In this document: positions 32,482 through 51,876 of the stretch, piece by piece | Layout of the letters: the number at the start of each line of letters is the position of its first letter | Position numbering within the stretch: the stretch's first letter is position 1 | Source of the DNA: Stygiobacter sp. RIFOXYC2_FULL_38_25 | GTDB taxonomy: Bacteria > Bacteroidota > Ignavibacteria > Ignavibacteriales > Melioribacteraceae | Length of the DNA stretch: 64,000 nucleotides | Direction of reading: 5' to 3' | NCBI GenBank assembly: GCA_001803165.1 | Contig: MHAZ01000006.1 | Span: 125,428-189,427, forward strand | Notes under the pieces: generated by a model | Databases searched by the model: none | What the model was told of the DNA's origin: nothing | The model's input: the letters and a program-made list of their open reading frames with translations, nothing else | Program-made: the position numbers and the translations under genes

Positions 32482-34056
32482 CTATTTAACCATTTCTTCT
32501 TTTTCAAAAACTTCAAGTTTGATTTCGTTAAAAACCAGATAGTGATTTATAGCTTGCAAATATGCTTTGGCACTTGCCTCAATAATATCTGTTGAAGTTC
32601 CTCTTCCGTTAAACGATTTTTCTCCTTCGCGGATTCTCACGATTGCTTCGCCGAGAGCCTGTCTGCCGGAAGTAACCGAACGTACATTGTACGATTCAAC
32701 AGTTGGCTTAATTCCAAGTGCCCGTTCAATTGCATTGAATACTGCATCAACCGGTCCATCGCCGGGAGAAGATTCTTGCACAATTTTATCTCCGGAATGA
32801 ATTTGAACTGTTGCTGTAGGAATTGTTCCGGTGCCGGCGTTAACGTGCATGTATTTCAGTTCGTACAATTCTTCTTCTTTATAAATTTCATCACCCATCA
32901 ACACTCGCAAGTCGTCATCAAACACTTCTTTCTTTTTATCAGCGATTTCCAAAAACGCTTCATAAGCTTTTCCTAATTCATCTTCACTCGGATGATAGCC
33001 AAGTTCAATCAATCTGGATTTCAATCCGTGCCTTCCACTGTGTCTTCCCAAAACAATTTTTGTTTTGTTAACACCAACAGTCTCCGGCGTCATAATTTCA
33101 TAAGTCTCACGGTTCTTCAACATTCCGTCTTGATGTATTCCACTTTCGTGAGCGAACGCGTTTTCACCAACAATAGCTTTATTCGGCTGCACTACAATTC
33201 CGGTAAATCCGGAAACCATTCTGCTGGTGTTATAAATTTCCGAGTGATTTAATCCGGTGTAGAAATCGCAAATGTCTTTACGGACTTTCAGCGCCATTGC
33301 AATTTCTTCCATCGAAGCATTTCCGGCGCGTTCACCTATTCCATTTATAGTACATTCAACTTGACGCGCACCATTTTGAATTGCGGCTATTGAGTTTGCG
33401 ACTGCGAGACCAAGATCGTTGTGGCAGTGAACGCTTATGATTGCTTTATTAATATTTTTCACTCTGCGCTTCAACTCTGCGATCTTAGCACCATACTCTG
33501 ATGGGAAAGTGTAACCGGTTGTATCCGGAATGTTTACTGTTGTAGCACCAGCTTCAATTGCTGTTTCAATAATATCAGCTAAATAACCTATGTCTGTTCT
33601 TCCGGCATCTTCGGCAGAAAATTCAATATCATCACAATAAGTTTTCGCGTAAGCAACTGCATCGTAAGACATCTTCAAAACCGTTTTACGTTTTTCTTCT
33701 AACGTAGCGCCATATTTGCTGTCGCCAAATTTTCCAAGGATGTGATAATCCGATGTGCTGCTGAAAGTATGAATGCGGGGATGCTTCGCGTTTCTCAATG
33801 CATCGAACGCGGTTTTAATATCAATTTCTTTTGCGCGTGAAAGTCCGGCAATAATAACTTCCGATTCATCAGCAATTCTTTTTACTGCCTCAAATTGCGC
33901 CGGAGAGGAAACCGGAAATCCAGCTTCTATAACATCAACTTTTAGTTTTGCTAGCTGGCGAGCGATTTCTAGTTTCTCATAAACATTTAACGATGCGCCT
34001 GGCGATTGTTCGCCGTCTCTCAATGTTGTGTCGAAGATTATAATTTTTTCGCTCAT
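32482..34056 (-). CDS. leuA: 2-isopropylmalate synthase
   Basis: First committed enzyme of leucine synthesis, joining acetyl-CoA and 2-oxoisovalerate. The 524-residue product has FDTTLRDGEQSPGASLNVYE at the start, EAGFPVSSP near residue 45, metal-ligand HCHNDLGLAVANS near 203, NGIGERAGNASMEE near 238, and a C-terminal regulatory domain (about 385-510) that in the family binds leucine. The ATG follows GGAGA. A hairpin-repeat pair fills the upstream spacer to leuB. Confidence 0.96.
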   Translation of the reverse strand: MSEKIIIFDTTLRDGEQSPGASLNVYEKLEIARQLAKLKVDVIEAGFPVSSPAQFEAVKRIADESEVIIAGLSRAKEIDIKTAFDALRNAKHPRIHTFSSTSDYHILGKFGDSKYGATLEEKRKTVLKMSYDAVAYAKTYCDDIEFSAEDAGRTDIGYLADIIETAIEAGATTVNIPDTTGYTFPSEYGAKIAELKRRVKNINKAIISVHCHNDLGLAVANSIAAIQNGARQVECTINGIGERAGNASMEEIAMALKVRKDICDFYTGLNHSEIYNTSRMVSGFTGIVVQPNKAIVGENAFAHESGIHQDGMLKNRETYEIMTPETVGVNKTKIVLGRHSGRHGLKSRLIELGYHPSEDELGKAYEAFLEIADKKKEVFDDDLRVLMGDEIYKEEELYELKYMHVNAGTGTIPTATVQIHSGDKIVQESSPGDGPVDAVFNAIERALGIKPTVESYNVRSVTSGRQALGEAIVRIREGEKSFNGRGTSTDIIEASAKAYLQAINHYLVFNEIKLEVFEKEEMVK

Positions 34057-34071
34057 GTCTTTCTCCTTTTA

Positions 34072-34113
34072 AATTCTGATCCCGCATTCAGCGGGAGAAG
34101 AATCTCCTAATTA
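34072..34113 (+). repeat. Interspersed hairpin repeat, copy C
   Basis: Reads outer arm ATTCT, then GA, inner hairpin TCCCGC/GCGGGA, then GA, closing arm AGAAT and the trailer CTCCTAATTA. It is the left member of an inverted pair with copy E in the leuB-leuA spacer. Confidence 0.85.
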
Positions 34114-34173
34114 GATTTACTCAGCATTTTTTTCTTGCATTTTTCAAACGTTAATTCTCTTACTTAAAATAAA

Positions 34174-34213
34174 GTAGGAGATGCTTCTTCCGGCAATTGC
34201 CGGACTCAGCATT
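34174..34213 (-). repeat. Interspersed hairpin repeat, copy E
   Basis: On the minus strand it has outer arm ATGCT, inner palindrome TCCGGCAATTGCCGGA and closing arm AGCAT, followed by CTCCTA. Both outer-arm bases that differ from copy C (T to G and A to C) compensate each other, preserving the pairing. It is the right member of the pair in the leuB-leuA spacer. Confidence 0.85.
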
Positions 34214-34221
34214 AAAAAAAG

Positions 34222-35316
34222 TTAAAGTGTAAAAACACCTAAACCTTGTTTGTGATAAATCTCTTTGAAATTTTCTATTACGCGCTCGGTCATTTTATCA
34301 GTTGAAACCAGCTTGCATCCTTCACTCATAATATCAACAGTACGGTAACCGTCATCCAAAGTTTTGTTGATAGCTTCTTCAATTAAGTCGCCGGCTTTTT
34401 TCATTTCGAATGAGTAAGTAAACATCATCGCTACAGAAGATATTGATGCGAGCGGATTAGCTTTGTTCTGTCCGGCAATATCCGGCGCGCTGCCGTGAAC
34501 CGGCTCGTACAAAGCGTATTTGCTTCCTAAACTTGCTGATGGCAGCATTCCTAAACTTCCGGTTATCATTCCCGCTATGTCGCTAAGAATATCGCCAAAC
34601 AAATTTGAAGTTAAGATCACATCAAATTGTTTTGGGTTGCGCACTATTTGCATCGCGCAATTATCTACATACATGTCGTTAAGTTCTACATCCGGAAAAT
34701 CTTTGTGAACTTCGTGAACAACATTGCGCCAGAATTGAGAAACTTCCAGAACGTTTGCTTTATCAACAGAAATAACTTTGTTTTTTCTTTCGCGAGCAAC
34801 TTTGAAAGCCATACGAGCGATACGTACAACTTCTTCTTTGGAATAGACCATAGTGTTGAATCCGCGCTCTGTATCAAACCCGCGCGGCTCGCCAAAATAA
34901 ATTCCGCCGGTTAATTCGCGGAAGACAACAAAGTCAACACCGTCAAGAACTTCTTTCTTCAAAGAAGAAGAATCTACAAGCGGCTTGTAAATTTTTGCCG
35001 GACGGATATTCGTGTACAATCCCAAAGATTTGCGAAGTTTTAATAACGCTGCTTCCGGTTTCAAATTATGTGGAAGCGATTCCCATTTGTATCCGCCAAC
35101 AGCGCCAAGAAATACCGCATCGGAATCATAACACGTCTGAATCGTTTCATCAGTTAATGGAGTTCCATGCGCATCGTAAGAACATCCGCCTATCAAACAT
35201 TCTTTGAATTCAACTTCAGTGTGGAAATGTTCCGCTACAGTTTTTATTACTTGAACTGCAGAAGCTGCAACTTCAACTCCAATTCCATCACCGGGAAGTA
35301 AAGCTATTTTAAACAT
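34222..35316 (-). CDS. leuB: 3-isopropylmalate dehydrogenase
   Basis: NAD-dependent oxidative decarboxylation of 3-isopropylmalate. I start at the ATG at 35316, which leaves GTGAG as the ribosome site; the frame could open three codons earlier at a GTG. The 364-residue product has LLPGDGIGVEV at the N-terminus, RELTGGIYFGEPRG near residue 133, DNCAMQIVRNPKQFDVI near 225 and GSAPDIAGQNKANPLA near 280, the NAD-binding signature of the LeuB branch. Hairpin-repeat copy A abuts its ribosome site. Confidence 0.95.
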   Translation of the reverse strand: MFKIALLPGDGIGVEVAASAVQVIKTVAEHFHTEVEFKECLIGGCSYDAHGTPLTDETIQTCYDSDAVFLGAVGGYKWESLPHNLKPEAALLKLRKSLGLYTNIRPAKIYKPLVDSSSLKKEVLDGVDFVVFRELTGGIYFGEPRGFDTERGFNTMVYSKEEVVRIARMAFKVARERKNKVISVDKANVLEVSQFWRNVVHEVHKDFPDVELNDMYVDNCAMQIVRNPKQFDVILTSNLFGDILSDIAGMITGSLGMLPSASLGSKYALYEPVHGSAPDIAGQNKANPLASISSVAMMFTYSFEMKKAGDLIEEAINKTLDDGYRTVDIMSEGCKLVSTDKMTERVIENFKEIYHKQGLGVFTL

Positions 35317-35329
35317 TATTCTCACTTTT

Positions 35330-35373
35330 AATTCTGAGTCCGGCAGATGCCGGGCGAAGAATCTCCTAATTAG
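35330..35373 (+). repeat. Interspersed hairpin repeat, copy A
   Basis: Outer arms ATTCT/AGAAT, inner hairpin CCGGC-AGAT-GCCGG, and the trailer CTCCTAATTAGA. It begins immediately upstream of the leuB ribosome site and is inverted relative to copy B at 35449. Confidence 0.85.
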
Positions 35374-35448
35374 AATGTTAAAAAATCTTTTATTTCATTT
35401 ACAAAAAAATCTTTCTTTTTGGATAATGAATCTCTGACTTATGAGTTC

Positions 35449-35484
35449 GAGATTCTTCATCCCGACACGTCGGGATTCAGAATT
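35449..35484 (-). repeat. Interspersed hairpin repeat, copy B
   Basis: On the minus strand it has ATTCT, inner hairpin ATCCCGAC/GTCGGGAT and AGAAT. Its first bases overlap the ilvC stop codon (35483-35485), so the repeat abuts the end of ilvC. Confidence 0.85.
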
Positions 35485-36475
35485 ACTTCTTAACCAGCCA
35501 GCTCATCATGCTGCGCAACTTTGCACCAACTACTTCAATTCCATGTTCTCTATTATCTTTTCTAAGCTGATTAAACTTAGATGCACCGGAATTGTATTCT
35601 TCAATAAATTCTTTTGCAAATTGACCGCTTTGAACTTCTTCCAAAATCTTTTTCATTTCTTTTTTCGTTTCGGATGTAATCACTCTTGGTCCGCGAGTCA
35701 TTCCGCCATATTCTGCAGTATCGCTCACAGAATAATTCATGCGAGAGAGACCTCCTTCGTAATAGAGATCAACAATCAATTTCATTTCGTGCATACATTC
35801 AAAGTAAGCGAGTTCAGGTGGATAACCGGCTTCAACAAGTGTTTCAAATCCAGCTTTAATTAATTCCGCAGAGCCGCCGCAAAGAACCGCTTGCTCGCCA
35901 AACAAATCCGTTTCAGTTTCATTCTTAAAGTTTGTTTCAATAACACCGGAACGCGCGCCGCCAATTCCTTTTGCCCATGCAAGCGCTAAATCTTTTGTGT
36001 TGCCGCTCGGGTCTTGTTCAACTGCAATCAAGCAAGGAACGCCGCTGCCTTGCTCGTATGTTCTGCGAACCAAGTGTCCCGGACCTTTCGGCGCGATCAT
36101 CATCACATTTACATCTGCCGGAGGAACGATTTGTTTGTAATGAATATTGAAGCCGTGTCCGAATGCAAGTGTATCACCGGATTTGAGATTAGGAGCTATC
36201 TCAGAATCATAAACAGATTTTTGAGTTTGATCCGGCAACAAAATCATAATAACATCAGAAGACTTCACAGCATCAGCAACAGATTTAACTTCAAGTCCGC
36301 CGGCTTTTGCCTTTTCAACCGATGCAGAATCTGAACGAAGACCAACGCTAACATTCATTCCGCTCTCTTTTAAGTTAAGTGCGTGCGCATGACCTTGGCT
36401 GCCGAAACCCAGCACAGCAATTTTTTTATTTTTTAGAAGATCAAGATTTGCATCCGCGTCATAATAAACTTTCAT
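35483..36475 (-). CDS. ilvC: Ketol-acid reductoisomerase (class I)
   Basis: Isomerises and reduces acetolactate or acetohydroxybutyrate with NAD(P)H. The 330-residue product is the short class I form: Rossmann motif [20 protein letters not shown] near residues 19-38, specificity loop [13 protein letters not shown] near 45-57, [12 protein letters not shown] near 127 and the C-terminal knotted domain with [21 protein letters not shown] and [14 protein letters not shown]. It is 13 bases after ilvH. Its stop codon is shared with hairpin-repeat copy B. Confidence 0.97.
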
Positions 36476-36488
36476 TTCATTACCTCTT

Positions 36489-37001
36489 TTATGTTGTTAT
36501 ATTTTTTTCTTTTAGAATTCTTACTTGCTCACCACGCTTCAAAGCAACAATACCGCTTCTAGCTATTTCCTTTATTCCGAATGCGGAAAGAAGATTTATC
36601 GCCGCATCAATTTTATCCGGCGGTCCAGTAACTTCAATTGTCAAAGATTTATTTGTGATGTCAACTATGTTTCCACGGAAGATGTCGTTAATGTTTTTGA
36701 TTTCTTCCATCGCACCTTTGGGAACTGAAACTTTGATGAGCGCCAATTCTCTTTCAACACGCGGTGCATCGCTAAGATCAACAACTTTAATTGTGTCAAT
36801 TAATCTGTTCAACTGTTTTACAACTTGATCAATGATCTGATCGTCACCTTCTGTGACAATCGTCATGCGGGAGATTTCTTCAATCTCGGTTTCACCAATC
36901 GAAATACTTCTGATGTTAAAACCTTTTCCGCTGAACATAGTCGCAACACGGTCGAACGCGCCAAAATGATTTTCTACTAAAACGGAAATTGTGTGTTTCA
37001 T
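36489..37001 (-). CDS. ilvH: Acetolactate synthase small (regulatory) subunit
   Basis: Regulatory partner of IlvB; in the family, valine binds its N-terminal ACT domain. The 170-residue product begins [20 protein letters not shown] with [15 protein letters not shown] (ACT domain, about 1-75) and ends with the second ALS_ss_C domain (about 85-160, [15 protein letters not shown]). Its ATG directly follows the ilvB stop with no gap, so translation of the two subunits is probably coupled. The symbol ilvN is used for the same family. Confidence 0.96.
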
Positions 37002-38720
37002 TTATGTCATCCTCTTTGGATTTAATCTCTTAACCATCATGTCGGAAATTGAAGCGCCGGATGGAATCATCGGGAAAACCATATCGGCTTTTACAACTCT
37101 GAACTCAATAAGAACGGGTCTGTCTTTAACTGCAAGCGCTTTATCTAAAAGACCATCAACTTCTTTTGGATCGCTTGTTGAGTAAGATTCAATTCCGAAT
37201 GCTTCGCCGACTTTTACAAAATCCGGATTGCTCGCGCCTAAATCTGTAAAACTAAATTTCTCCGCATGAAATAATTCTTGCCATTGTCTCACCATCCCAA
37301 GAAAAGAATTGTTGATGATAAAAATTTTGATAGGCAATTTGTTAGCCACAGCGGTAGTAAGTTCTTGAATGTTCATCTGGAAACCACCGTCGCCGCTGAT
37401 AGAAACAACTGTTCTATCCGGAACAGCAAACGCAGCGCCAATAGAAGCCGGAAGCGAGAAGCCCATCGTTCCCAATCCTCCGCTTGTTAAGTTAGAACGC
37501 GGGTTGTTGTATTTGTAATGTTGTGCCGTCCACATTTGATGTTGACCAACATCTGTAACAATCACAGCATCGCCATTTGTCTTTTCGCAAATTCTATCTA
37601 TAACAAATTCTGTTCTAAGTTTTCCATCTTTGTCTTCGTAACTAAGCGGGCATTCTTCGCGCCACTCATCTATTTGAGCAAGCCAAGCACTTGTATCCGG
37701 TTTAGTTGTCATCTCTGCAGCAAGTTCCGCAAGAACATGTTTTACATCTCCAACTATCGGAAGATCAACAACAACGTTTTTATCTATCGCTGTCGGATCA
37801 ATATCAACATGAATCTTATATGCCTTTGTACAGAATGTATCAACCTTTCCGGTAACGCGGTCATCAAAGCGTGCGCCGAGCGAAACTAAAACGTCACAGC
37901 TATCAACCGCTCTGTTTGCCCAATATGTTCCGTGCATTCCTAACATGCCAAGTGATAACTCATCTGTTCCCGGATAAGCGCCCAAACCTTGTAATGTCAT
38001 CGTAACCGGTAATTTATTTTCTCGTGCGAATATTTTTAGTTCTTCCGAACTGCCGGACATGATTACACCGCCGCCAACATAAAGCAAAGGTCTCTTCGCT
38101 TTTGAAATAACTTCAGCAGCTTTTTTAATTTGATTAGTATGACCTTTGTAGTTTGGCTTGTATCCGCGCAAATCAACTTCTTCCGGATAAGTGAACTGGC
38201 ATTTTGCTGCAATAACATCTTTCGGTAAATCAACAACAACTGGTCCAGGTCTTCCGCTTGATGCAATGAAGAACGCTTTCTTAATAGTTGCCGCAAGTTC
38301 TTTTACATCACGCACAAGAAAATTATGTTTTGTAATCGGGCGGGTAATTCCAACAATATCGGCTTCTTGAAATGCGTCGTTGCCAATTAGATGAGATGAA
38401 ACTTGTCCTGTGAAAACCACAATCGGCACCGAGTCCATGTATGCATCAGCAATTCCAGTTACTGTATTTGTCGCTCCGGGACCTGAAGTTACAAGCACAA
38501 CACCAACTTTGCCTGAGGCTTTAGCGTAACCTTCTGCCGCGTGAACCGCACCTTGCTCGTGACGAACAAGAATGTGTTTCAAGAAATCAACATCATATAA
38601 ATGTTCATATATTTTTAATACCGCTCCGCCAGGATAGCCAAATACATATTCAACTTTTTCTTGCCTTAAGCATTCAAAGAATATGTCTGCACCTGTAAGA
38701 ACCTGTCCACTATTTTTCAT
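37002..38720 (-). CDS. ilvB: Acetolactate synthase large (catalytic) subunit
   Basis: Thiamine-diphosphate enzyme that condenses two pyruvates, or pyruvate and 2-oxobutyrate. The 572-residue product has the catalytic glutamate in HEQGAVHAAEGYAKASGKVG near residues 48-67, a central FAD-type domain (RFDDRVTGKVDTF), and the ThDP motif GDGGFQMNIQELTTA...NNSFLGMVRQWQE near 435-475. It lies 10 bases after ilvD and directly before ilvH. Biosynthetic rather than catabolic, because of the small subunit and pathway neighbours. Confidence 0.97.
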   Translation of the reverse strand: MKNSGQVLTGADIFFECLRQEKVEYVFGYPGGAVLKIYEHLYDVDFLKHILVRHEQGAVHAAEGYAKASGKVGVVLVTSGPGATNTVTGIADAYMDSVPIVVFTGQVSSHLIGNDAFQEADIVGITRPITKHNFLVRDVKELAATIKKAFFIASSGRPGPVVVDLPKDVIAAKCQFTYPEEVDLRGYKPNYKGHTNQIKKAAEVISKAKRPLLYVGGGVIMSGSSEELKIFARENKLPVTMTLQGLGAYPGTDELSLGMLGMHGTYWANRAVDSCDVLVSLGARFDDRVTGKVDTFCTKAYKIHVDIDPTAIDKNVVVDLPIVGDVKHVLAELAAEMTTKPDTSAWLAQIDEWREECPLSYEDKDGKLRTEFVIDRICEKTNGDAVIVTDVGQHQMWTAQHYKYNNPRSNLTSGGLGTMGFSLPASIGAAFAVPDRTVVSISGDGGFQMNIQELTTAVANKLPIKIFIINNSFLGMVRQWQELFHAEKFSFTDLGASNPDFVKVGEAFGIESYSTSDPKEVDGLLDKALAVKDRPVLIEFRVVKADMVFPMIPSGASISDMMVKRLNPKRMT

Positions 38721-38730
38721 AAAAGACCTT

Positions 38731-40410
38731 TCAGAAATTAGTTTTTAAAACTGCACCTTTGTTTGCGCTTGTTACCATACGAGAGTAACGCGCTAAATAA
38801 CCTTTTTTAATTTTTGGTTCGAACTCCGGAAGCGCTTCAATACGTTCCGTAATTATTTCATCGCTGAGTTCTACATTCAATTTTCTGTTTGGAATATCGA
38901 GCGTGATAATATCACCGCTATGAACTGCCGCAATTGGTCCCCGTTCAGCCGCTTCCGGAGAAACGTGACCAATGCAAGCTCCGCGTGTACCACCGCTAAA
39001 TCTTCCATCGGTAATGAGAGCAACTCTATCGCCTAATCCCATTCCCATAATTGCGCCGGTTGGAGTTAACATTTCCGGCATTCCGGGTCCACCTTTCGGT
39101 CCTTCGTAACGAATGATTACACAATCACCCGCTTTAACATCTCCTTTAAGAATTTTTTCTACGGCTTCTTCTTGAGATTCATAAATTTTTGCTGGTCCGG
39201 AAAACTTCATCATCTTTTCATCAACCGCGCCGGTTTTTACAATCGCACCATTAGGAGCTAAGTTACCAAACAGTACTGCAAGTCCACCGGTTTTAGAATA
39301 TGGATTTTCAACAGTACGAATTACAGTTTCATCTTTTATTGATGCTGAAGAAATATTTTCGCCCAAAGTTTTTCCGGTTACTGTCGGGGCGCTTTCATCA
39401 AGCAAGTTTAATTTTGTTAATTCTTTTAAGATTGCCGAAATTCCACCGGCTCTATCAACATCTTCTATATGAACATTTTTGGTTGCCGGACTAACTTTGC
39501 ATATGTAAGGTGTCTTAGCAGAAAGTTCATTCAACATATTAAGATCAAGCTCAATTCCGGCTTCTTCTGCAATTGCTAATGTGTGAAGAATTGTATTTGT
39601 ACTTCCACCCATCGCAAGATCAAGTGAGAAAGCATTCTTGAAAGAATTGAGAGATAAAATGTTGCTTGGTTTTAAATCATCATTTACTAATTGGAGAATT
39701 TGTTTTGCTGCGGAGGTTGCGAGTTCTTTTCGTTTGGGGTCTAATGCGAGTATTGTTCCATTTCCGGGGAGAGCCATTCCCAATGCTTCGCACAAACAAT
39801 TCATTGAGTTAGCTGTAAACATTCCGGAACATGAGCCGCAAGACGGACAACTAAAATCTTCCAATTGCTTTAATCTCTCTTCGTTAATTGTTCCCGAGCT
39901 AAATTGACCAACACCTTCGAACACAGAAATCAAATCAACTTTTTCGCCACTCGGCAAACGACCGGATTTCATTGGACCACCGGAAATAAATATTGTAGGC
40001 ACATCAACACGAACTGCCGCCATTAACATACCGGGCACGATTTTATCACAGTTAGGAATGCAGATCATACCATCTAAACGGTGAGCTTCAACAACAGTTT
40101 CAACACAATCAGCTATCAACTCGCGGCTGGCTAATGAGTAGCGCATTCCCAAATGCCCCATCGCAATTCCGTCATCAACACCAATAGTATTGAATTCGAA
40201 CGGAACACCGCCGGCTTCGCGAATTGCATCTTTAATCAGCTTGCCGAATTCTTGTAAATGCACATGCCCGGGAATTAAATCTATATAGGAATTGCAGACG
40301 CCAATAAATGGTTTTTTGAAATCTTCATCGCTCTTAATAACGCCGGTTGCTTTCAGTAAGCTTCTGTGCGGAGCTTTGTCAAAACCTTTTTTGATTAAAT
40401 CTGAACGCAT
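38731..40410 (-). CDS. ilvD: Dihydroxy-acid dehydratase
   Basis: Iron-sulphur dehydratase giving 2-oxoisovalerate or 2-oxo-3-methylvalerate. The 559-residue product has the cluster cysteines in GVCNSYIDL (near 37), [15 protein letters not shown] (near 117-130) and [17 protein letters not shown] (near 190), plus [15 protein letters not shown] near 470. The ATG follows GGAGAA. It is the first large gene of the branched-chain unit; the inverted repeat at 40452-40499 and a 51-codon frame at 40507-40662 lie just upstream. Confidence 0.97.
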
Positions 40411-40451
40411 AATTCTCCAATTATAGTCCTCAGATATAACTCTTGGGTTTC

Positions 40452-40499
40452 GGTCAATCCCGATCCAATTATATTTTGTTTTTAGATTTGGGATTGACC
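40452..40499 (-). promoter_or_regulatory. Inverted repeat in the ilvD leader
   Basis: Perfect 10-base arms GGTCAATCCC (40452-40461 and its complement at 40490-40499) enclose 28 bases, starting seven bases after the stop of the small frame at 40507. No T-tract follows, so it is not a plain terminator. The sequence ATAATTGGA occurs both in the loop (minus strand) and at the ilvD ribosome site. Confidence 0.55.
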
Positions 40500-40506
40500 A
40501 GTTATT

Positions 40507-40662
40507 CTAGAATAGAATAATAATTCCTAGAAGCACTAGAATGTTAATAATCCCTAAAAGAATGATTTCTGAAGAAAGGTTATAAGTTGAAGACACGTGG
40601 TTGCAGGTCGCTTCCAGTGGAATAGCTATTGGTTGTGCCATATTTCTATTTGTGTCTTTCAT
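40507..40662 (-). CDS. Candidate branched-chain leader peptide or small membrane protein upstream of ilvD
   Basis: A 51-residue frame too short for routine calling. The N-terminal 30 residues are polar (MKDTNRNMAQPIAIPLEATC...), and the last 19 before the TAG are IILLGIINILVLLGIIILF: eight Ile, six Leu and one Val. It ends 96 bases before ilvD and is followed at once by an inverted repeat, which is the layout of an ilv leader peptide whose translation senses charged Ile/Leu/Val tRNA. Against this, the run would also make one membrane span, the peptide is longer than classical leaders and no strong ribosome site precedes either ATG (40662 or 40641). The two readings cannot be separated from sequence alone. 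Confidence 0.5.
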   Translation of the reverse strand: MKDTNRNMAQPIAIPLEATCNHVSSTYNLSSEIILLGIINILVLLGIIILF

Positions 40663-40771
40663 AGGTATTTAACTTGTTGCGAATATAGCCGATGAAAATT
40701 TAGTTGTCAAGACTTTTTTGAATATCCATAAATATTTTTCCATTTCCGTGCATAATTATGCATGTGTATTA

Positions 40772-40918
40772 TCATCTGACAACTAAAATCTTTTTGGAAA
40801 GGTTTAATAAACCGCGAATCAGGATAAGGTAAATTCCTGGAGCTAAACTTCCAAGCTCCAAATTAATTTGAAATTGACCTTGCGGATGCTTTCTATTTAC
40901 TAATTCACCTAACGCAAG
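40772..40918 (-). pseudogene. 3' fragment of a type IX cargo gene (sorting-tail remnant)
   Basis: Read on the minus strand the frame ends QGQFQINLELGSLAPGIYLI, then IRG...LSKKILVVR and a stop, which is the end of a type IX sorting domain. Nothing upstream supplies the usual NYPNPFNP motif; the frame runs into CACAGAG-type repeats at about 40935. It is therefore a truncated remnant and probably not expressed. Confidence 0.65.
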
Positions 40919-40934
40919 AATCAGAATAATATCT

Positions 40935-41043
40935 TTTCTCTGTGATTCTCTGTGATTCTCTGTATTTGCTCTCTGTTTCTTTGTGATATTTCTTTTTTAC
41001 ACAGAGTGCCACAGAGGAGTCACTGAGTTACACCGAGATAAAA
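40935..41043. repeat. CACAGAG/CTCTGTG repeat tract
   Basis: Three tandem near-copies of CTCTGTGATT are followed by CTCTGTTTCTTTGTG and, further right, by ACACAGAGTGCCACAGAGGA. The two halves are partly complementary. The same unit type appears at 21113-21216. Confidence 0.65.
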
Positions 41044-41073
41044 CTTTTTGCGTAAGGTGAGTCACTAATTCTC

Positions 41074-41236
41074 TCACACGCTCCCCAAAAATATTATAAT
41101 TCCCCAAATATGGTTGGGCATAATAACGTTATAATCCAATACAACATATTTAAAATGATTCGGAATTACTATCCGACATTGTTCTGCATAATTTTCAATT
41201 TCATGCTTAATCATTTTTTCGTGTAAAATTTTGCCA
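41074..41236 (-). pseudogene. Fragment of a REP-associated tyrosine transposase (RAYT)
   Basis: On the minus strand one frame reads GKILHEKMIKHEIENYAEQC, then RIVIPNHFKYVVLDYNVIMPNHIWGIIIF and a stop. The VIMPNHxHGIII element is the HUH metal-binding hallmark of Y1-type transposases of the RAYT group; here the second His is replaced by Trp, so the copy is inactive. N- and C-terminal parts are missing. Its 5' end overlaps the maturase gene's 3' end. It is related to the fragment at 44110-44370. Confidence 0.8.
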
Positions 41237-42442
41237 GATTTCTTCCGTTCTGAATAAGTTCATAACATTTGACGGAGGTTGTTTTTGGTTTAATTCATTA
41301 ACCATGAATTTCATGTATGGTCCAATGTGTTCAAAAAACTTTTTATAACCGCTGCACAGATAGTTCAATCCAGCTTCGCCTTCGGGTGTAGTTATAAAAC
41401 GTTCTTTAGGACAACCGCCATTGCAGGCAAATTTATACTCGCATTTTAAACAATATCCAGGAAGTTTCTCTTTTTTGTCTCTGCCGAATTTTTCCTGCTG
41501 TTCCGACACAGCAAGTAAACCGATTGACACAACTGAAATATTACCTAATAAATTTTCGGGAAAGACGTAATGATCGCACGAAAACAAATCGCCGTTATGC
41601 TCAATTGCTAAGGCATTACCGCACGTTTCGGCAACGACACATAAGCTCGGGGGAACTCCGCACCAACTTTCTAAAGCTACATCAAAACTTTGTACAAAAT
41701 ATTGGCCTACATCTTTCTTCACCCATGAATCAAAGATTTCGCACAGAAAATTTCCATATTGATCCGGCTCAACCGACCAATCACTTACAATTGAATTTAG
41801 ATTTTGCAGATCAACAGTACTTCCGATAGTTATTCCTTCGATATTTTTCTTTTCCACGGCAGGAATAAACTGCATGAATTCGCTTCCAATTTCTTTAAGG
41901 AACTCATATACCTCAAGCGGGTAATACGAATTTTTCCGATTTACAACAGTAAGGGTATTAAATCTTACAGTATGCTTTTTCAGATAATCAATTCCTCTCA
42001 GCACTAAATCAAATGTTGATTTACCTTTTTTGTTTACACGATAATAATCATGAAGTTGCTTTGGTCCATCGATAGAAATCCCGACAAGGAAATCATGATC
42101 TGCAAAAAATTTGCACCACTCATCATCTAACAAAATACCGTTTGTTTGAAAAGCATTCTCGATATATTTTCCATTGCTGTATTTATTTTGCAGTTCCAAA
42201 GCTTTTTCATAAAAAGATAAACCTAACAATGCTGGTTCGCCTCCCTGCCATAAAAATTGAACCAAACCGGCTGGCTGACTTTCAATGTATTGCCTTATAT
42301 AATTCTCCAGCATTGCATCGCTCATCTTCCAAGACTTTTCTTCCGGATAAAGCTTTTCCTTATCCAGGTAAAAACAATACTTGCAATCAATATTGCAAAT
42401 TGGACCAATCGGCTTGGCAATTATGGAGAATGGCTTTCCCAA
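41207..42442 (-). CDS. Anaerobic sulfatase-maturating radical SAM enzyme
   Basis: Converts the active-site Cys or Ser of sulfatases to formylglycine. The 411-residue product has the radical SAM cluster CNIDCKYC (Cys16, Cys20, Cys23), QFLWQGGEPALLGLSFYEKA near 64-83, and SPASM-type cysteines (CGVPPSLC, CDHYV, YCLKCEYKFACNGGCP). The start is a TTG at 42442, in the same frame as the upstream sulfatase and one codon (AAT) after its TAG. The last residues (WQNFTRKND) are encoded by DNA that recurs in the RAYT fragment at 44.3 kb, so the natural C-terminus has probably been replaced. The adjacent sulfatase is the likely substrate. Confidence 0.9.
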   Translation of the reverse strand: MGKPFSIIAKPIGPICNIDCKYCFYLDKEKLYPEEKSWKMSDAMLENYIRQYIESQPAGLVQFLWQGGEPALLGLSFYEKALELQNKYSNGKYIENAFQTNGILLDDEWCKFFADHDFLVGISIDGPKQLHDYYRVNKKGKSTFDLVLRGIDYLKKHTVRFNTLTVVNRKNSYYPLEVYEFLKEIGSEFMQFIPAVEKKNIEGITIGSTVDLQNLNSIVSDWSVEPDQYGNFLCEIFDSWVKKDVGQYFVQSFDVALESWCGVPPSLCVVAETCGNALAIEHNGDLFSCDHYVFPENLLGNISVVSIGLLAVSEQQEKFGRDKKEKLPGYCLKCEYKFACNGGCPKERFITTPEGEAGLNYLCSGYKKFFEHIGPYMKFMVNELNQKQPPSNVMNLFRTEEIWQNFTRKND

Positions 42443-42445
42443 ATT

Positions 42446-44038
42446 CTATTTCTCTAATGGATTTGTATCGCCGTATTTTTCCTGAAGCTTTTTAAGTTCA
42501 GTTTTCAATTCATTTAATACATCTTTGTAAGCCGGATCAGTGTAAAGATTGTTTAATTCATTAGGATCTTTTTCCAAATCGTACAATTCCCATGTGTCTA
42601 TATCATTATAAAAATGGATAAGCTTGTAACGCTCGGTTCGAATGCCGTAATGTCGTTTAACATCATGCCAGCCGTGAGGATATTCATAATAGTGATAGTA
42701 CATCGAAGTCCGCCAATCATTCGGTGTCTTTCCTTTAAGAATTGGGCGAAAGGATTCACCCTGCATTTCTTGAGGAGCATTAACTCCCGCAAAATCCAAA
42801 AATGTTGGAGCGAAATCGAGATTGAGCACCATCTCTTCCGAAACTTGATTGGGTCTAATTTCCTTGGGATAACGAACAACGAGTGGCATACCAAGAGATT
42901 CTTCATACATAAATCTTTTATCGTACCAGCCGTGCTCGCCAAGATAAAATCCTTGATCAGATGTATAAATTACAATTGTATCATCTGCCAGGTTATGCTT
43001 ATCAAGATAATCGAGAAGCCTGCCAACGTTTTCATCAACAGAAAGAATGCAGCTTAGGTAATCCTTAATGTAACGCTGATATTTCCATTCGGTTAAATCT
43101 TTACCTTGTAAATTATCTTCCTTAAATTTTTTACTGATGCGGTCATAGTGAGCATCCCAAAGTTTCTTTTGCTGTTCGGTTAAGCTCTCATAAGTTTTTT
43201 GCCAGGAGTCATCGGCATTTGGCGCAAACTCTTTATTGCCTCCTGTACCTGTTTCTTTTTCGAAATCACCTTCTTTAAGTTTCAGATCGTGACCCAAATA
43301 CATGTCATCTATTCTCATGTCGGCTTCTTTTGCTGCCTGCCGATTTTTATAATCGTCAAAAAGAGTTTCCGGCAGCGGCAAATCTTTATTATCGTAGGCA
43401 TCTAGATGCTTTGAGTTAGGCATCCAATTGCGGTGAGGCGCTTTATGATGTACCAGCATGCAAAACGGAGTTTCAGTATCCCGCTTTTCGAGTATCTCAA
43501 GAGCTTTATCGGTGATAATATCGGTTGTATAGCCTGTATATTTTTTATTAACTCCATTTTCAATGAATATCGGATTATAATATTCACCTTGATCGATTAA
43601 CACCTGCCAGTCATCAAAGCCGGTGGGATTTGTTACAAGATGCCATTTTCCAATCATATAAGTTTTGTATCCCGCTTTTTGAAGCAGCTTTGTAAAAGTC
43701 ATCTGTTCACCATTAAAAGCATCGCGGTTATCTCTCAATCCATTTTTATGGCTATACTTTCCTGTAAGCATTGTTGCTCTGCTTGGTCCACAAATTGAAT
43801 TTGTAACAAAGCTGTTCTTAAACATTATTCCTTCATTCGCAATTCGGTCGATGTTGGGAGTATTGATGAGAGCTTTGCTGTAACAGCTAATTGCTTGCTC
43901 GGCATGGTCGTCGCTCATTATAAATAATATATTCGGCCGCTTAGTTTGTTTACCATCGATTGGTAATAAAATTGGAAAAGTAAGTCCGACTGTTCCCAGT
44001 CCGGCAGTCTTAATAAATTCTCTTCTGGTAAAGCTCAT
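42446..44038 (-). CDS. Cys-type sulfatase with Tat-like signal
   Basis: A 530-residue arylsulfatase-family hydrolase. The N-terminus has a twin-arginine signal (FTRREFIKTAGLGTVG). Metal ligands are in NILFIMSDDHAEQ (Asp43, Asp44) and the formylglycine site is SICGPSRATMLTGKYSHKNG with Cys83, the type matured by the radical SAM enzyme encoded directly downstream. IGKWHL, HKAPHRNW and YTSDQGFYLGEHGWYDKRF supply further active-site residues. Substrates of this subfamily (S1) are often sulfated glycans. Export through Tat, after maturation in the cytoplasm, is inferred. Confidence 0.93.
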   Translation of the reverse strand: MSFTRREFIKTAGLGTVGLTFPILLPIDGKQTKRPNILFIMSDDHAEQAISCYSKALINTPNIDRIANEGIMFKNSFVTNSICGPSRATMLTGKYSHKNGLRDNRDAFNGEQMTFTKLLQKAGYKTYMIGKWHLVTNPTGFDDWQVLIDQGEYYNPIFIENGVNKKYTGYTTDIITDKALEILEKRDTETPFCMLVHHKAPHRNWMPNSKHLDAYDNKDLPLPETLFDDYKNRQAAKEADMRIDDMYLGHDLKLKEGDFEKETGTGGNKEFAPNADDSWQKTYESLTEQQKKLWDAHYDRISKKFKEDNLQGKDLTEWKYQRYIKDYLSCILSVDENVGRLLDYLDKHNLADDTIVIYTSDQGFYLGEHGWYDKRFMYEESLGMPLVVRYPKEIRPNQVSEEMVLNLDFAPTFLDFAGVNAPQEMQGESFRPILKGKTPNDWRTSMYYHYYEYPHGWHDVKRHYGIRTERYKLIHFYNDIDTWELYDLEKDPNELNNLYTDPAYKDVLNELKTELKKLQEKYGDTNPLEK

Positions 44039-44444
44039 AGCAGTTCACCTTATTTATTGGAGAAGTAAGTTGACTTTTGAATTTAATTTATAGAAAATCT
44101 TTAAGAATCTCAGAGGAAAGATGAAATATCGACAGGTTGATGAATCAGATACGCTTCATTAATGATTTGTCCTAAAGATGGTTTCTGTACAGATGCCCGA
44201 TCTGGCGTACCGGCAGAATTTATTATTATAATTCCATGAGTATGATTTGGCATAATAACATAATAACCATGATCAGCTGTGCTCAAACGATTTGGAATTT
44301 CTAATCAGCAATGCTCAACATAATTTCCAATTTCATTCATAATCATTTTTTCGTGTAAAATTTTGCCATGTTGAAACCATGAAAAATCAATATCCTCACA
44401 ATTCTCTATCTCAGCTTCTGTACTGAATTGCTTCCGGAATATGA
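44039..44444. other. Intergenic region between the sulfatase gene and dinD
   Basis: About 400 bases filled almost entirely by the RAYT pseudogene (44110-44370) and a decayed duplicate of the comM 3' end (44391-44451). A promoter for the sulfatase gene presumably lies at 44039-44109, but none is clear. Confidence 0.7.
44110..44370 (-). pseudogene. Decayed REP-associated tyrosine transposase (RAYT) fragment
   Basis: A minus-strand frame reads GKILHEKMIMNEIGNYVEHC, a stop codon, then LEIPNRLSTADHGYYVIMPN, then HTHGIIIINSAGTPDRAS and KPSLGQIINE. The intact HTH pair of the HUH motif and the LGQII helix place it in the RAYT family, but an internal stop and the missing ends (including the catalytic tyrosine region) make it a pseudogene. 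The first 27 bases are shared with the fragment at 41.2 kb. Confidence 0.82.
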
Positions 44445-44451
44445 TTAATTC
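44391..44451 (-). pseudogene. Duplicated 3' end of comM/yifB (copy 2)
   Basis: Read on the minus strand in the ComM frame this gives NHIPEAIQYRS, stop, DREL, stop, GY, against NHISEAIQYRSLDRELWGH in the real gene at 45322-45383. The two 60-base segments agree at about four-fifths of positions by eye. This copy starts at the dinD stop codon, so dinD is bracketed by two comM ends. Confidence 0.85.
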
Positions 44452-45284
44452 AAAAGTTTCGCTTTGCCGTTCTGGAGTTTTTTTTCTTTAGCTTTTCTTT
44501 TTTCTATCTGCTTTATGTCTTCTTCCGGCTTCAATATTTCCGGTTTAATTCCACGTTTTAATAGTACTTGTCTTGTTGCTTTACTGTTCTCTACAACTTC
44601 CTTCTCCAATTTTGGTTTTCCGGTTAAGTCTTTTGCTTTTATGTTATGGTCTGTCATCGCCAAAGCAAAATCTTTAGCACGTAATTCAACATCTGTATCA
44701 AAATCAGCAAGAGCTCTTTTCTCCGGAATGTTCCTTTTTTTCTTAAGTTCTTTAATCCCAATTCCACCATATAAAGCTCTAATATGTTTGTCTTTGAATG
44801 TAGCAAATTCGACCGGCAATTTTATTCCTCGTTCATATACTGTCTGTTCAATTTTTTCTTCTGTTTGCTTTAACTTTCGCCGGGATTTTAATCTTTTATC
44901 CTCATAACTAAGTTGTTCATTTATTTCTTGTTTTCTTGTTTGCACTGCAAAGTAAGTCTGAGCATATGCAATCTCTTGTTTGCGCGGATCACCATTTTGG
45001 GCAACTAAGTAACATGCGTATCTTGTAAGAAGAAAATCATTTATTTCTCTTTCTGCATCAGAACCAAGAGATACCTTTTTGGCGGAGCCGACAAAATGGT
45101 CTCCAATTTTCTGTCCACTAGCTTTACAAGCATCGAGAGATTTATTAATCACACCTTCGAACTTACGCCATTCTTTATAACCAAGCAGCGGCATCAACTC
45201 GCGTGCTGACCAATACTCTAAGTCATCCTGAACTTTTTTAATTGATTCAAGTTTAGTATTCAAATTAACTACGAACTTATTCAT
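44445..45284 (-). CDS. dinD: DNA damage-inducible protein D (DinD family)
   Basis: A 279-residue cytoplasmic protein of the DinD/antirepressor-like family. The BRO-N-like first half has LEYWSARELMPLLGYKEWRKFEGVI near residues 22-46 and LTRYACYLVAQNGDPRKQEIAYAQTYFAVQTRKQE near 85-119; the second half has the family's IRALYGGIGIKELKKKRNIP and a basic tail. In E. coli DinD inhibits RecA filaments and is SOS-induced; I see no obvious SOS operator by eye. It lies immediately downstream of comM between two comM 3' ends, suggesting that it arrived as an insertion. Confidence 0.9.
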   Translation of the reverse strand: MNKFVVNLNTKLESIKKVQDDLEYWSARELMPLLGYKEWRKFEGVINKSLDACKASGQKIGDHFVGSAKKVSLGSDAEREINDFLLTRYACYLVAQNGDPRKQEIAYAQTYFAVQTRKQEINEQLSYEDKRLKSRRKLKQTEEKIEQTVYERGIKLPVEFATFKDKHIRALYGGIGIKELKKKRNIPEKRALADFDTDVELRAKDFALAMTDHNIKAKDLTGKPKLEKEVVENSKATRQVLLKRGIKPEILKPEEDIKQIEKRKAKEKKLQNGKAKLLN

Positions 45285-45320
45285 AGCCTTACCTCATCAA
45301 TAATATTGCATTGAAAAATA

Positions 45321-46859
45321 CTAATGTCCCCATAATTCTCTATCCAAACTTCTGTACTGAATTGCTTCTGAGATGTGATTAGTTCTTATTTGCTCAAAGC
45401 TTTCAAGATCGGCAATTGTTCTTCCTACTTTTAATATTCTGTCGTATGCTCTCGCGGATAAGCCGAGTTTGTTCATCGCCATCTTAAGCAAATCTTCACT
45501 CGCTTTATCTAGTTGGCAAAATGTTTTGATTTCTTTAGAAGTCATATCAGCATTTTTGAAAACATGCTTAATTCCGGCAAATCTTTTCTGCTGAATATCC
45601 CTCGCGCCTACAACTCTTCTCCGAACCTCGGTTGATTTTTCACCGCTTGCTTTAGAAGCAAGTTCGTTAAACTTTACAGCCGGCACTTCTATGTGAATAT
45701 CAATCCGGTCTAAAAGAGGTCCGCTAATCCTTGCCATATATTTTTGGATTAGCGGAGTGTTGCAAGTGCATTCGTGATTAGGATCGGTGAAATATCCGCA
45801 CGGGCAAGGATTCATCGCAGCGGCAAGCATAAAATTCGCCGGAAATTCGATAGACATTTTCGATCTGCTAACTGTTACTTTGTAATCTTCAAGAGGCTGG
45901 CGCATAACTTCCAAAACATTTTTTTTGAATTCCGGCAATTCATCTAAAAAAAGAACTCCATGATGAGCAAAAGAAACTTCTCCGGGGCGAGGAAACGAAC
46001 CGCCTCCGATTAGCGCGGCATCGCTTACTGTATGGTGCGGACTCCGGAAAGGACGCTCGGTAATTATCGCCTTATCCTTTGCTAATATTCCAGCAACAGA
46101 ATGAATCTTTGTTGTTTCGAGCGCTTCTTCAAAAGTTAGCGGTGGGAGAATAGAGGGGAATCTTTTTGCCAGCATTGTCTTTCCACTTCCGGGCGGTCCA
46201 ATCATTATAATGTTATGCCCACCCGCAGCTGCAATTTCTAAAGCCCGTTTTACATTCTCTTGCCCTTTCACGTCGGCAAAATCGAGAATGTAATCATTAA
46301 CATGCGCAAACAATTCTTCTTTATTCGAAATGTAAGATTGGAATTCCCCTTCTCCATTCAAAAATTTGATTACATCATTCAGCGTTTCTAATCCATAGAC
46401 TTTGATACCTTCAACGATGGAAGCTTCCCGGACAGAATCAGCAGGTAAAATTATTCTCTTAATTCCTTTTCTCTTTGCTTCAACAGCAATTGGTAAACCA
46501 CCTTTAACTTTTCTTAATGTTCCATCTAACGAAAGCTCCCCAAGAAAAATTGTATCTGTTAAAAGCCCGGAACTTAGTATTTCCGTCGCTTCAAGTATTC
46601 CAATTGCAATCGGGAGATCGAACGAACTGCCTTCTTTCTTTATATCTGCGGGTGCAAGATTAACTGTAATCTTCTTGTGAGGTAATGTAATTCCGGAATT
46701 TTTAATTGCGGCAGAAACGCGCTCGCGGCTTTCCTTTACTGCGTTATCCGGCAATCCAACAATTGTAACTGAGGGAAGATTATTTTCGCTGTGAGTTTCT
46801 ACTTCTACAAGATAAGCGTCTATTCCAATTGTAGCACCGGATAGGATTTTCGAAAACAT
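45321..46859 (-). CDS. comM: YifB/ComM-family magnesium chelatase-like AAA+ ATPase
   Basis: A hexameric helicase-type ATPase; ComM promotes branch migration during natural transformation in Vibrio. The 512-residue product has the N-terminal ChlI-type domain (VTIVGLPDNAVKESRERV), Walker A GPPGSGKTML with Lys227, Walker B GVLFLDELPEF near residue 305, the NPCPCGYF...CTC cysteine cluster, arginine-finger region RISGPLLDRIDIHIEV and the C-terminal sensor domain (LSARAYDRILKVGRTIADL). Complete and probably functional. A decayed copy of its last 20 codons lies beyond dinD. Confidence 0.95.
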   Translation of the reverse strand: MFSKILSGATIGIDAYLVEVETHSENNLPSVTIVGLPDNAVKESRERVSAAIKNSGITLPHKKITVNLAPADIKKEGSSFDLPIAIGILEATEILSSGLLTDTIFLGELSLDGTLRKVKGGLPIAVEAKRKGIKRIILPADSVREASIVEGIKVYGLETLNDVIKFLNGEGEFQSYISNKEELFAHVNDYILDFADVKGQENVKRALEIAAAGGHNIIMIGPPGSGKTMLAKRFPSILPPLTFEEALETTKIHSVAGILAKDKAIITERPFRSPHHTVSDAALIGGGSFPRPGEVSFAHHGVLFLDELPEFKKNVLEVMRQPLEDYKVTVSRSKMSIEFPANFMLAAAMNPCPCGYFTDPNHECTCNTPLIQKYMARISGPLLDRIDIHIEVPAVKFNELASKASGEKSTEVRRRVVGARDIQQKRFAGIKHVFKNADMTSKEIKTFCQLDKASEDLLKMAMNKLGLSARAYDRILKVGRTIADLESFEQIRTNHISEAIQYRSLDRELWGH

Positions 46860-47047
46860 GGGTCATCCCCCAAATGGTTGTTAGTAAGCTAATAAAATTC
46901 TTCTCAACAATAAATGATAGTATTAAACTTACTTACTCGAATGTAACCATGGTAGCATTTTTACGCCAATATATTTTGACGGTTGTTGTCTTGAAAAACA
47001 ATTTTATATATTAAATGAGTTCTTTCATTCTACGGAGTAAACAAGAA

Positions 47048-48616: not shown

Positions 48617-48635
48617 AAACAGATTCGATCTGCCG

Positions 48636-50729: not shown

Positions 50730-50814
50730 TCGAGCCCCTTTTACCGCCCACTTGTTTTTAGCTATACCTAACTAAAATATTCTTTGATTGATGTGCAAGT
50801 ACAAAATTTTTCCT

Positions 50815-50841
50815 AAAAAAACCCCGCTCATGTTTGGCGGG
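50815..50841 (-). terminator. Rho-independent terminator for the nuo/toxin-antitoxin unit
   Basis: On the minus strand CCCGC-CAAACATGA-GCGGG is followed by seven T residues. It lies 55 bases after the RelE stop and would end transcription coming from nuoGHI and the antitoxin-toxin pair. Confidence 0.75.
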
Positions 50842-50895
50842 CTGATACTTTGACTCAGGCTCAGAACAACACTAAAATGGCTTTCAAGAATTTTA

Positions 50896-51159
50896 TCACT
50901 TTTTCTTCTTATAAACTTCTTTTCGGTGTTTAATTCTAAAAACAAAAATAGATTTTGCTGAATCATCTATTTCATATAAGACACGGTAATTTCCAATTCT
51001 TATCCTATAACCTTCTTGCTCGGTAAGCTTTTGAGTGCCAATAGTCCTTGGGTCTTGCGAAAGGAGAAAAATCTTAGGTGCTAGGCGAATAACTTCTTTA
51101 TCCGGTAGTTTATCCAAGTCCTTCTGAGCAGAAGGCTTAATGATTAATTTGTAAGCCAC
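50896..51159 (-). CDS. RelE/ParE-type toxin
   Basis: An 87-residue toxin of the RelE superfamily, which usually cleaves mRNA on the ribosome. It shows the family pattern KLIIKPSAQKDLDKLP at the start, DPRTIGTQKL in the middle and YRIRIGNYRVLYEIDD with IFVFRIKHRKEVYK at the end; the Arg and Tyr residues of the last part form the usual active site. Its start overlaps the antitoxin gene by 23 bases, as expected for a cotranscribed pair. Confidence 0.9.
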   Translation of the reverse strand: MAYKLIIKPSAQKDLDKLPDKEVIRLAPKIFLLSQDPRTIGTQKLTEQEGYRIRIGNYRVLYEIDDSAKSIFVFRIKHRKEVYKKKK

Positions 51160-51331
51160 GTTTTTGCAAATATTGTTCTATAGATATGTCCTTTCCTTTT
51201 ACAAGCTTTGATGCTTTATAGTCAACCATATCTTCCATCAATTCTATAGAGTCGCTAAGAGCTGGATTCTTTTTCATTTTCTCCCAATCTGCTCTTGGAA
51301 TTTTAACGTGTGTTTTTGTTTTAGTGATCAT
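51137..51331 (-). CDS. Antitoxin partner of the RelE-type toxin
   Basis: A 64-residue acidic/helical protein directly upstream of and overlapping the toxin gene. The N-terminus (KTHVKIPRADWEKMKKNP) could form the ribbon or helix that binds DNA; the C-terminal half (SKLVKGKDISIEQYLQKRG) has the ISIEQYL element typical of antitoxins paired with RelE toxins. Family assignment rests mainly on position and size. Confidence 0.8.
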   Translation of the reverse strand: MITKTKTHVKIPRADWEKMKKNPALSDSIELMEDMVDYKASKLVKGKDISIEQYLQKRGLQINH

Positions 51332-51860: not shown

Positions 51861-51876
51861 TTCATTCCTTCCGGTT

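Follow-up and report, generated by a model that had tools for sequence, protein, structure and literature searches.

The question raised by the leuB-leuA spacer of this Stygiobacter genome is what its two facing hairpins are and what moves them; a preliminary description had read them as a REPIN moved by RAYT transposases, remnants of which lie 7–10 kb away. In the window, that is, the whole 64-kb stretch of DNA that was analysed, half-element C (34073–34103, plus strand; 50.5 bits with model R1) faces half-element E (34181–34212, minus strand; 61.8 bits), as had been described. The 77-nt spacer between them (34104–34180, no strand) starts with CTCCTAATTAGA, which is also present in the second pair, and finishes with TAGGAG. 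That second pair, matched by model R1 in both halves, occupies the ilvC-leuB spacer (35331–35362, plus strand, and 35452–35483, minus strand, the latter overlapping the ilvC stop codon with its first base). A third, likewise matched, lies in the nuoG-nuoH spacer and consists of 52927–52957 on the plus strand and, after a 20-nt gap, half-element F (52978–53009, minus strand). The claim of a paired inverted layout held for all three, which are convergent (plus, then minus) with gaps of 77, 89, and 20 nt. The flanking genes, named from Pfam matches as ilvC, leuB, leuA, nuoG, and nuoH, are all on the minus strand. Five of the six copies are intergenic or touch a gene end, and F is inside the 3′ end of the nuoG-like frame. 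Around F (52972–53009), the half-element seems to provide the last codons of that frame before its stop.

Each half-element combines a 5-bp outer stem with an invariant TGA...GAA collar and an inner hairpin that varies. Read 5′ to 3′, the order is a 5-nt arm ending in T, GA, the inner hairpin, GA, and the complementary arm (ATTCT-GA-TCCCGCATTCAGCGGGA-GA-AGAAT in copy C). Four of the six window copies have ATTCT/AGAAT as outer arms, and compensatory changes give ATGCT/AGCAT in E and ACTCT/AGAGT in F, exactly the variants previously listed. Neither a GTC tag before the stem nor GTAG directly 5′ of it occurs in any of the six.

The expectation that the genome (4.4 Mb, 22 contigs) would hold many further copies was borne out, with 56 exact matches to ATTCTGA...GAAGAAT against none for the reversed pattern. 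A covariance model built from the six copies gave at least 37 matches (E up to 0.1) over 10 contigs, a number that includes the six training copies and for which 150 of 876 first-look candidates were scored; the six close pairs among these matches, three of them the training pairs, are all convergent. In an own-genome sample, an inner stem was found in 19 of 27 ATTCTGA...GAAGAAT matches by our own filter. A scan of 464 kb of the genome for TGA, a GC-rich stem-loop, and GAA, in which outer pairing was not required and part of the sequence had been picked for earlier matches, gave 19 matches, whereas three shuffles gave 1, 1, and 0. With other core words, four in number, the count was 1–4, and TGA...AAG, which shares two letters with the true motif, gave nine. 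The pattern ATNYTGA...GAARNAT was discarded as too noisy (549 matches versus 149 in the reversed control), as was a looser core scan dominated by chance matches.

Spacers in the own-genome stretches inspected are mostly 20–25 nt (one is 14 nt) and usually start with CTC or CC and end with AG, with little common sequence otherwise. Since its spacer is 77 nt rather than the usual 20–25 nt, the C-E pair may be a decayed or composite copy. Near the minus-strand half of the second pair, a spacer of normal length seems, by eye, to terminate in a partner cut short to GAGATTC, so that the two leu-operon pairs (77 and 89 nt) may be composite. GTC precedes the hairpin in 14 of 26 copies kept from the own-genome sample and in 21 of 26 kept from a hairpin-rich relative, G074, and the tail CTC follows it in 12 of 26 and 23 of 26, respectively, a few kept rows being chance.

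The outer arms had been said to covary, and the covariation is significant both in the six copies and in an outside set. Among the window copies, 91.5% of 71 cells pair versus 79.2% in shuffles (0 of 500 as high), both-sided changes occur at 6 of 12 pairs, and sliding the partner by 1–3 columns lowers pairing to 37–55%; the covariation score exceeded all 500 column shuffles and all slid versions, in an alignment that is small and whose structure was derived from the same six copies. The outside set consisted of 97 distinct half-elements (100 in total) from 119 loci of other bacteria, retrieved with the pattern GTCA...TGA/GAA...TCTC, which put no constraint on the three arm pairs, after removal of the query copies; they were thus not chosen for pairing. 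Its three outer pairs are Watson-Crick in 91, 93, and 94 of 97 half-elements versus 74.1, 39.5, and 86.5 expected, the middle pair (93 versus 39.5) departing furthest; none of 10,000 shuffles reached the observed value at any of the three pairs, a figure that is not a strict probability because related sequences are not independent. Fully paired arms include ATTC, ATCC, ACCC, ATGC, ATGT, ACTC, and ACGC, and of 291 cells all but 13 are paired (the exceptions being 1 G-T, 5 A-C, and 7 other), so that one-sided intermediates are rare. In the own genome and G074, a scan ignoring the outer arms still recovers mostly paired arms.

Folded as single-stranded DNA, C reaches −9.4 kcal/mol (z −4.8) and E −9.0 kcal/mol (z −4.2), and the opposite strands reach −8.9 and −8.5 kcal/mol, respectively; both strands of C and E beat 200 of 200 shuffles, and the DNA energy model rates the two strands of one hairpin nearly equal.

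Comparison with same-genus genomes indicates that the hairpins were gained rather than inherited, because comparable genomes lack them at four sites. The leu-operon hairpins are absent from both spacers in all five same-genus genomes with a leuB region (L086–L090), the nuoG-nuoH pair from all four that align on both flanks (of five searched), and a further pair at C17:471 kb from both genomes that do so (of three searched); in a strict rescan of the relatives' loci, all matches were poorly paired chance hits whose inner stem was slight or missing. The leu spacers of the relatives are, by eye, about 7–13 nt in two genomes and hold different inserts in others. Other short repeats or palindromes occur in the spacers upstream of leuB in L086 and L088 and in the leuB-leuA spacer of L086 and L087, as if these spacers were favoured landing places. 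Neither a mobile intermediate nor an excision was seen, and no exact empty-to-filled junction was found among the relatives compared, and because their spacers have diverged or hold other inserts, exact junctions, element ends, and a target duplication could not be fixed.

These sites also bear on the idea that the hairpins work as RNA in the leu, ilv, and nuo operons, whether as terminator, mRNA stabiliser, or processing site. The hairpins do lie between co-directional genes, and REPs may act on mRNA according to the accessible text of PMC3733652, but the same-genus genomes do without them at the sites compared and no Rfam family is matched in window positions 33500–53500, where the only hit is a sub-threshold FasX at 48595–48736. 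Between 33900 and 35700, three terminator-like sites were found (1.6 expected), two of them near C and E, but all are on the plus strand, opposite to the genes. Nor do the one-sided changes at the outer pairs carry a sign of RNA-level selection, given the small numbers, as they include no excess of G-U over A-C (1 versus 5, few cases); the two inner pairs of 7-nt inner parts, with 4 G-T and 0 A-C, point in the opposite direction on equally few cases. A role as RNA is a very improbable explanation of the family.

Movement in trans by a RAYT of the same genome, as in a true REPIN, was the reading of the preliminary description, and inverted doublets with compensatory changes are indeed the layout described for REPINs in the accessible part of PMC3116915. 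The announced remnants exist, both on the minus strand: one at 44191–44379 has an in-frame stop and matches R4 over 44191–44367 (E 3e-10) and R3 over 44221–44379 (E 2e-8), and a second of the same kind lies at 41077–41235 (R4, E 2e-6). They resemble the own-genome RAYTs L003 and L004, which carry GTAG hairpins, and the remnant at 44191–44379 is probably not the partner of the TGA/GAA hairpin. A GTAG hairpin, GTAGAGACGTTGCATGCAACGTCT, of the type found at R4-type RAYTs and belonging to a different family, occurs on the plus strand of the window at 10384–10407 and again at 48710–48733; a GTAG scan of the window gave four matches, two of them A+T-rich, versus 0–1 in five shuffles. Such hairpins lie beside or inside five own-genome RAYTs: on both sides of L003 and L129, on one side of and inside L004, and only inside L035 and L036. 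REP insertions within tnpA-REP are described as frequent in subclass 2.4 in the accessible portion of PMC6006769.

An intact RAYT of another type, R2, speaks for the RAYT reading: the own genome holds several RAYTs, and one of them, L005, has an ATTCTGA...GAAGAAT hairpin 110–159 nt upstream and a half-copy downstream. The relatives of L005, however, carry another palindrome, GTCnnGG...CCnnGAC, which, among 12 R2-type RAYT loci, lies on both flanks in 8 and on a single flank in 3, with none found by pattern in 1; the preliminary description had itself named an unrelated palindrome at an intact RAYT gene as evidence against its reading, and such a palindrome is what was found. The 12 loci are those with both flanks (L016 and L018, at contig ends, were dropped, and other R2-like matches without a retrieved locus fall outside the count). 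Elsewhere the palindrome occurs twice in the window, three times in 400 kb of the own genome, and four times in 24 kb of far parts of the R2 loci. The R2-type clade at L005–L017, with its own palindrome in 11 of 12 loci, is a consistent REP-RAYT pair in its own right, and it could belong to a RAYT subclass described for Bacteroidetes in the accessible text of PMC6006769, where the structures flanking that subclass are called 'atypical'. The TGA/GAA hairpin is close to an R2-type RAYT in only one of the 12 loci, the own-genome L005, where it stands beside that gene's own palindrome, so a RAYT link could look right from one genome.

Across RAYT loci L005–L034 and L115–L144, convincing hairpins were found only at L005, at L006 (1.4 kb off), and at L133; the stem filter of the 12-locus palindrome scan misses the L005 hairpin, which was found otherwise, and of eight NF047646 matches in the own genome, C9:105107, which has a stop, was left out of the locus scan. 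At L133, in genome G025, an IS200-like Y1 gene some 330 bp away from a hairpin pair was rejected as the mover of that pair, since the gene is flanked on both sides by a CCACGTCC...GGGCGTGG hairpin of its own; among Y1 loci L365–L372 of hairpin-rich genomes, a real hairpin was found only in L365, the same place as L133. Two neighbouring observations concern other repeats. The L133 pair (G025:C102, about 1060–1200) sits between inverted copies of CTCACCTTACGCAA, which also follows the 41.1-kb RAYT remnant of the window (about 41045–41075, minus strand) and is possibly another carrier repeat. In the own genome, an IS200-like TnpA (L001, 1100–2000; G000:C6:52 kb) lies between ATAGCCCC...GGGGCTAT hairpins of the ATAGCCCCxGGCTTAAGCC type on both sides, another Y1-hairpin system.

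Genome-wide counts showed no clear link. Over 79 genomes of the family, the hairpin number hardly tracks the number of RAYT matches (Spearman 0.21, p 0.06), and the median hairpin count is 11 both in 13 R2-clade genomes and in the 66 others, low counts per genome including chance matches in coding sequence. Two hairpin-rich genomes, G057 and G058, hold dozens of genuine clustered hairpins yet no significant Y1: in G057 (99% complete), the best PF01797 match is not significant (E 0.045) and NF047646 is without a match, and G058 has no PF01797 match at E up to 1 and no NF047646 match. In the other hairpin-rich genomes, Y1 matches at E up to 1 number 3 in G078, 2 in G016, 7 in G025, and 6 in G074. 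A RAYT in the genome is thus not needed for the hairpins to be present, although a RAYT since lost may have moved them in the past. The 119 outside loci (856 kb) contain only two RAYT-like frames, the nearer 523 bp off (E 7e-4). Among 139 frames next to hairpins in these loci (≤700 bp away, 100–450 aa), no Pfam family was matched more than three times, and no transposase is among the 25 commonest of the 215 Pfam families. No RAYT is consistently linked to the hairpin, and we regard transposition in trans by a RAYT of the same genome as unlikely. The REPIN reading of the preliminary description therefore stands for the copies, covariation, inverted pairs, and gain at sites, and fails for the RAYT as mover.

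In some related genomes, the pair has a different setting. G074 has 225 pattern matches; seven of nine strictly matched pairs combine one ATAT-type with one ATTC-type half, and the spacers are alike and mostly 30–31 nt. Many of its pairs lie inside longer inverted ends, GARRCCTTTGCATAACCTAAATT, and the inverted repeats around the pair resemble GAGACCTTTGCATAACCTAAATT; several copies have, by eye, 5-bp A+T-rich target duplications (TATAA, TATTA, TAAAA, and TTTTA). The element looks like a DDE-type MITE carrying the pair. Copies with ends like GARRCCTTTGCATAACC, 5-bp A+T-rich duplications, and the hairpin pair as core are seen at L167 (about 9780–9960), L170 (about 6900–7080), and L178 (about 5790–5970). 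The whole family could, on this model, consist of miniature elements that depend on a cut-and-paste (DDE) transposase and whose inverted ends include the hairpins; the G074 repeats and duplications speak for this. However, such outer repeats were not seen around the own-genome copies inspected, and even in G074 clear duplications are confined to some of the copies, L166 showing none. Further, no full-length version is visible in the 119 outside loci, since convergent pairs 300–3500 bp apart (4) are fewer than divergent ones (11). We doubt that a DDE element explains the family.

G057 and G058 differ again in arrangement: 49 of the 58 pattern matches in G057 lie in dense clusters on two contigs (C2:489–559 kb and C3:257–273 kb), and because the copies are clustered elsewhere, a 400-kb stretch of this genome is without hairpins; of the 71 matches in G058, most are, by eye, real hairpins. 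The clusters are of mixed, often alternating orientation, and their inner stems are of many kinds and, by eye, mostly paired.

The family also extends far beyond these relatives. A 27-mer, GTCATTCTGAGCGAAGCGAAGAATCTC, the commonest form of the repeat, is exact in at least 119 stretches and, among the 80 matches listed, in about 18 phylum-level groups, assigned from sequence titles with Gamma- and Alphaproteobacteria counted once. The groups are Acidobacteria, Bacteroidota, Ignavibacteria, Chloroflexi, Clostridia, Cyanobacteria (SIG26), Helicobacter, Nitrospirae, Planctomycetota, Poribacteria, Deltaproteobacteria, Gamma-/Alphaproteobacteria, Verrucomicrobia, Elusimicrobia, Armatimonadetes, Methylomirabilis, Abyssobacteria, and Daviesbacteria. 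The listed carriers are mostly metagenome bins, for which misbinning is possible, and include the named strains Helicobacter marmotae, Winogradskyella psychrotolerans, Chryseobacterium sp., Edaphobacter aggregans, Hymenobacter aerophilus, and Oscillochloris sp. By our own arithmetic, about 3e-5 chance matches are expected in 257 Gb. The 27-mer is rare on plasmids and phages: a 30-nt query matched 6 of 72,556 plasmids, each of them from cyanobacteria, and 1 of 50,697 phages, and a search of 2.9 million viral contigs located the 27-mer in 17 stretches.

Inverted pairing holds here as well. Of 129 copies of the 27-mer, 48 have an inverted partner with fully complementary arms within 70 nt on the tail side, and neighbours ≤120 bp apart in the 119 outside loci are convergent in 59 cases, divergent in 20, and same-direction in 6, after 17 overlapping same-direction detections were set aside. 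Among partner halves with a 7-nt inner part, 31 of 38 have a GNA loop and 22 of 38 read GCGNAGC, with all four bases at N, although the partners come from loci picked with a GCGAAGC query and their loops may not be independent of it. GNA minihairpins are described as extraordinarily stable as DNA, GCGAAGC melting at 78 °C, in the accessible text of PMC4686876, and the predominance of GNA-loop inner hairpins suggests recognition as single-stranded DNA. The 27-mer itself folds to −1.9 kcal/mol, no better than shuffles (108 of 200 at least as good), a poor score that we assume arises because the energy model gives no credit to the collar and GNA loop.

The same data bear on a history without any transposition of the repeat's own, in which ancient short palindromes are kept paired by template switching, multiplied locally by slippage, and spread by recombination, pairing being a by-product that is not selected. 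Template switching in replication (quasipalindrome correction) would keep the palindromes paired, and both the scarcity of unpaired cells in the outer stems and the dense clusters in G057 and G058 would follow from such a history. It leaves unexplained, however, the gain at new sites, the invariant TGA/GAA collar and the GTC/CTC ends, and an identical 27-mer in about 18 phylum-level groups, and it has in our estimate a poor chance of being correct.

The hairpin pair is, we think, probably a non-autonomous chromosomal repeat of the REPIN/BIME kind whose mover lies outside the RAYTs examined. Two nested DNA hairpins face each other and fold on opposite strands, each with a fixed collar, TGA...GAA, that can form tandem G-A pairs, an outer 5-bp stem whose letters are free to change while paired, an inner hairpin of free sequence, and often GTC before and CTC after. 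The unit may be read in its folded single-stranded form, which would probably arise on the lagging strand or in the course of repair. An enzyme might read the tag and the mismatched collar and hold the stems largely without sequence preference, like TnpA-REP of E. coli; a fixed collar, an outermost A-T pair, and, outside the window copies, frequent GTC/CTC, together with varying stems, are, by this analogy, what would be expected of a protein that reads a tag and a mismatch zone. Copying or cut-and-join at such sites would then spread the unit, and the enzyme may be lost, shared with other elements, or a general host function, and is none of the RAYTs examined here. In some relatives, the pair has other routes, travelling inside a terminal-inverted-repeat element (G074) or multiplying in dense clusters (G057 and G058).

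A bolder version, which we offer tentatively and hold to be rather unlikely, is that paired single-stranded DNA hairpins with a TGA/GAA collar and GNA minihairpins are pan-bacterial and spread without a dedicated transposase, through a conserved host function that copies or inserts folded single-stranded DNA; one 27-mer would then be identical in about 18 phylum-level groups while seldom occurring on plasmids and phages. That some short palindromic repeats have no known mover is an acknowledged gap, as stated for the CGTC repeats in the accessible text of PMC3733652, and the present family is defined by a structural rule (a covarying outer stem, a fixed collar, and often a GNA loop) rather than by sequence alone. 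The exact 27-mer in named strains is a ready bait for the protein that reads it, and such a bait would clearly discriminate between a host enzyme and a transposase that has been lost or is shared.

Among known systems, literature motif searches, with most subscription journals out of reach, returned no paper on a TGA/GAA repeat. DDE MITEs are resembled in G074, where the pair lies inside inverted ends and some copies have 5-bp duplications, but not around the own-genome copies inspected, where such ends were not seen. With REPINs (Bertels and Rainey, 2011; PMC3116915, in its accessible part), the family shares inverted doublets, compensatory changes, singlets, and clusters, and two inverted REP-like hairpins do occur as one unit; it differs in that no RAYT is consistently flanked by the TGA/GAA hairpin, only L005 being close and having its own palindrome, and in that spacers and inner stems vary widely. 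The E. coli REP/BIME system resembles it in the conserved mismatch zone inside the hairpin stem, as far as the accessible text of PMC8266576 describes it, and in the mixed-orientation clusters that the hairpin family forms in relatives' genomes. In that text, E. coli REPs need the mismatch bulge for TnpA-REP, which makes non-specific contacts with the stem; the TGA/GAA hairpin, in contrast, lacks a GTAG tag, has another collar, and no cognate TnpA was found for it.

The closest kind are the CGTC-tagged REPs, which include Neisseria dRS3 (Di Nocera et al., 2013; PMC3733652), the comparison being with the accessible text of that paper. Theirs is one uninterrupted stem of 8–9 bp with a 4–5 nt loop and a CCA tail, whereas here the TGA/GAA collar splits the stem, the tail is mostly CTC, and the six window copies are without the tag; it is by this textual description that the TGA/GAA hairpin is set apart from the families of PMC3733652, one of which it may equal. 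The likenesses are a CGTC/TGTC tag before the stem in many hairpin copies outside the window, A-T pairs at the stem start, head-to-head heterodimers with 20–100 nt spacers, and an occurrence in several phyla, including Chlorobi and Bacteroidetes. The CGTC-tagged REPs, too, are without a known dedicated transposase in that account, and the TGA/GAA hairpin likewise forms head-to-head dimers with no dedicated transposase in the loci and frames examined.
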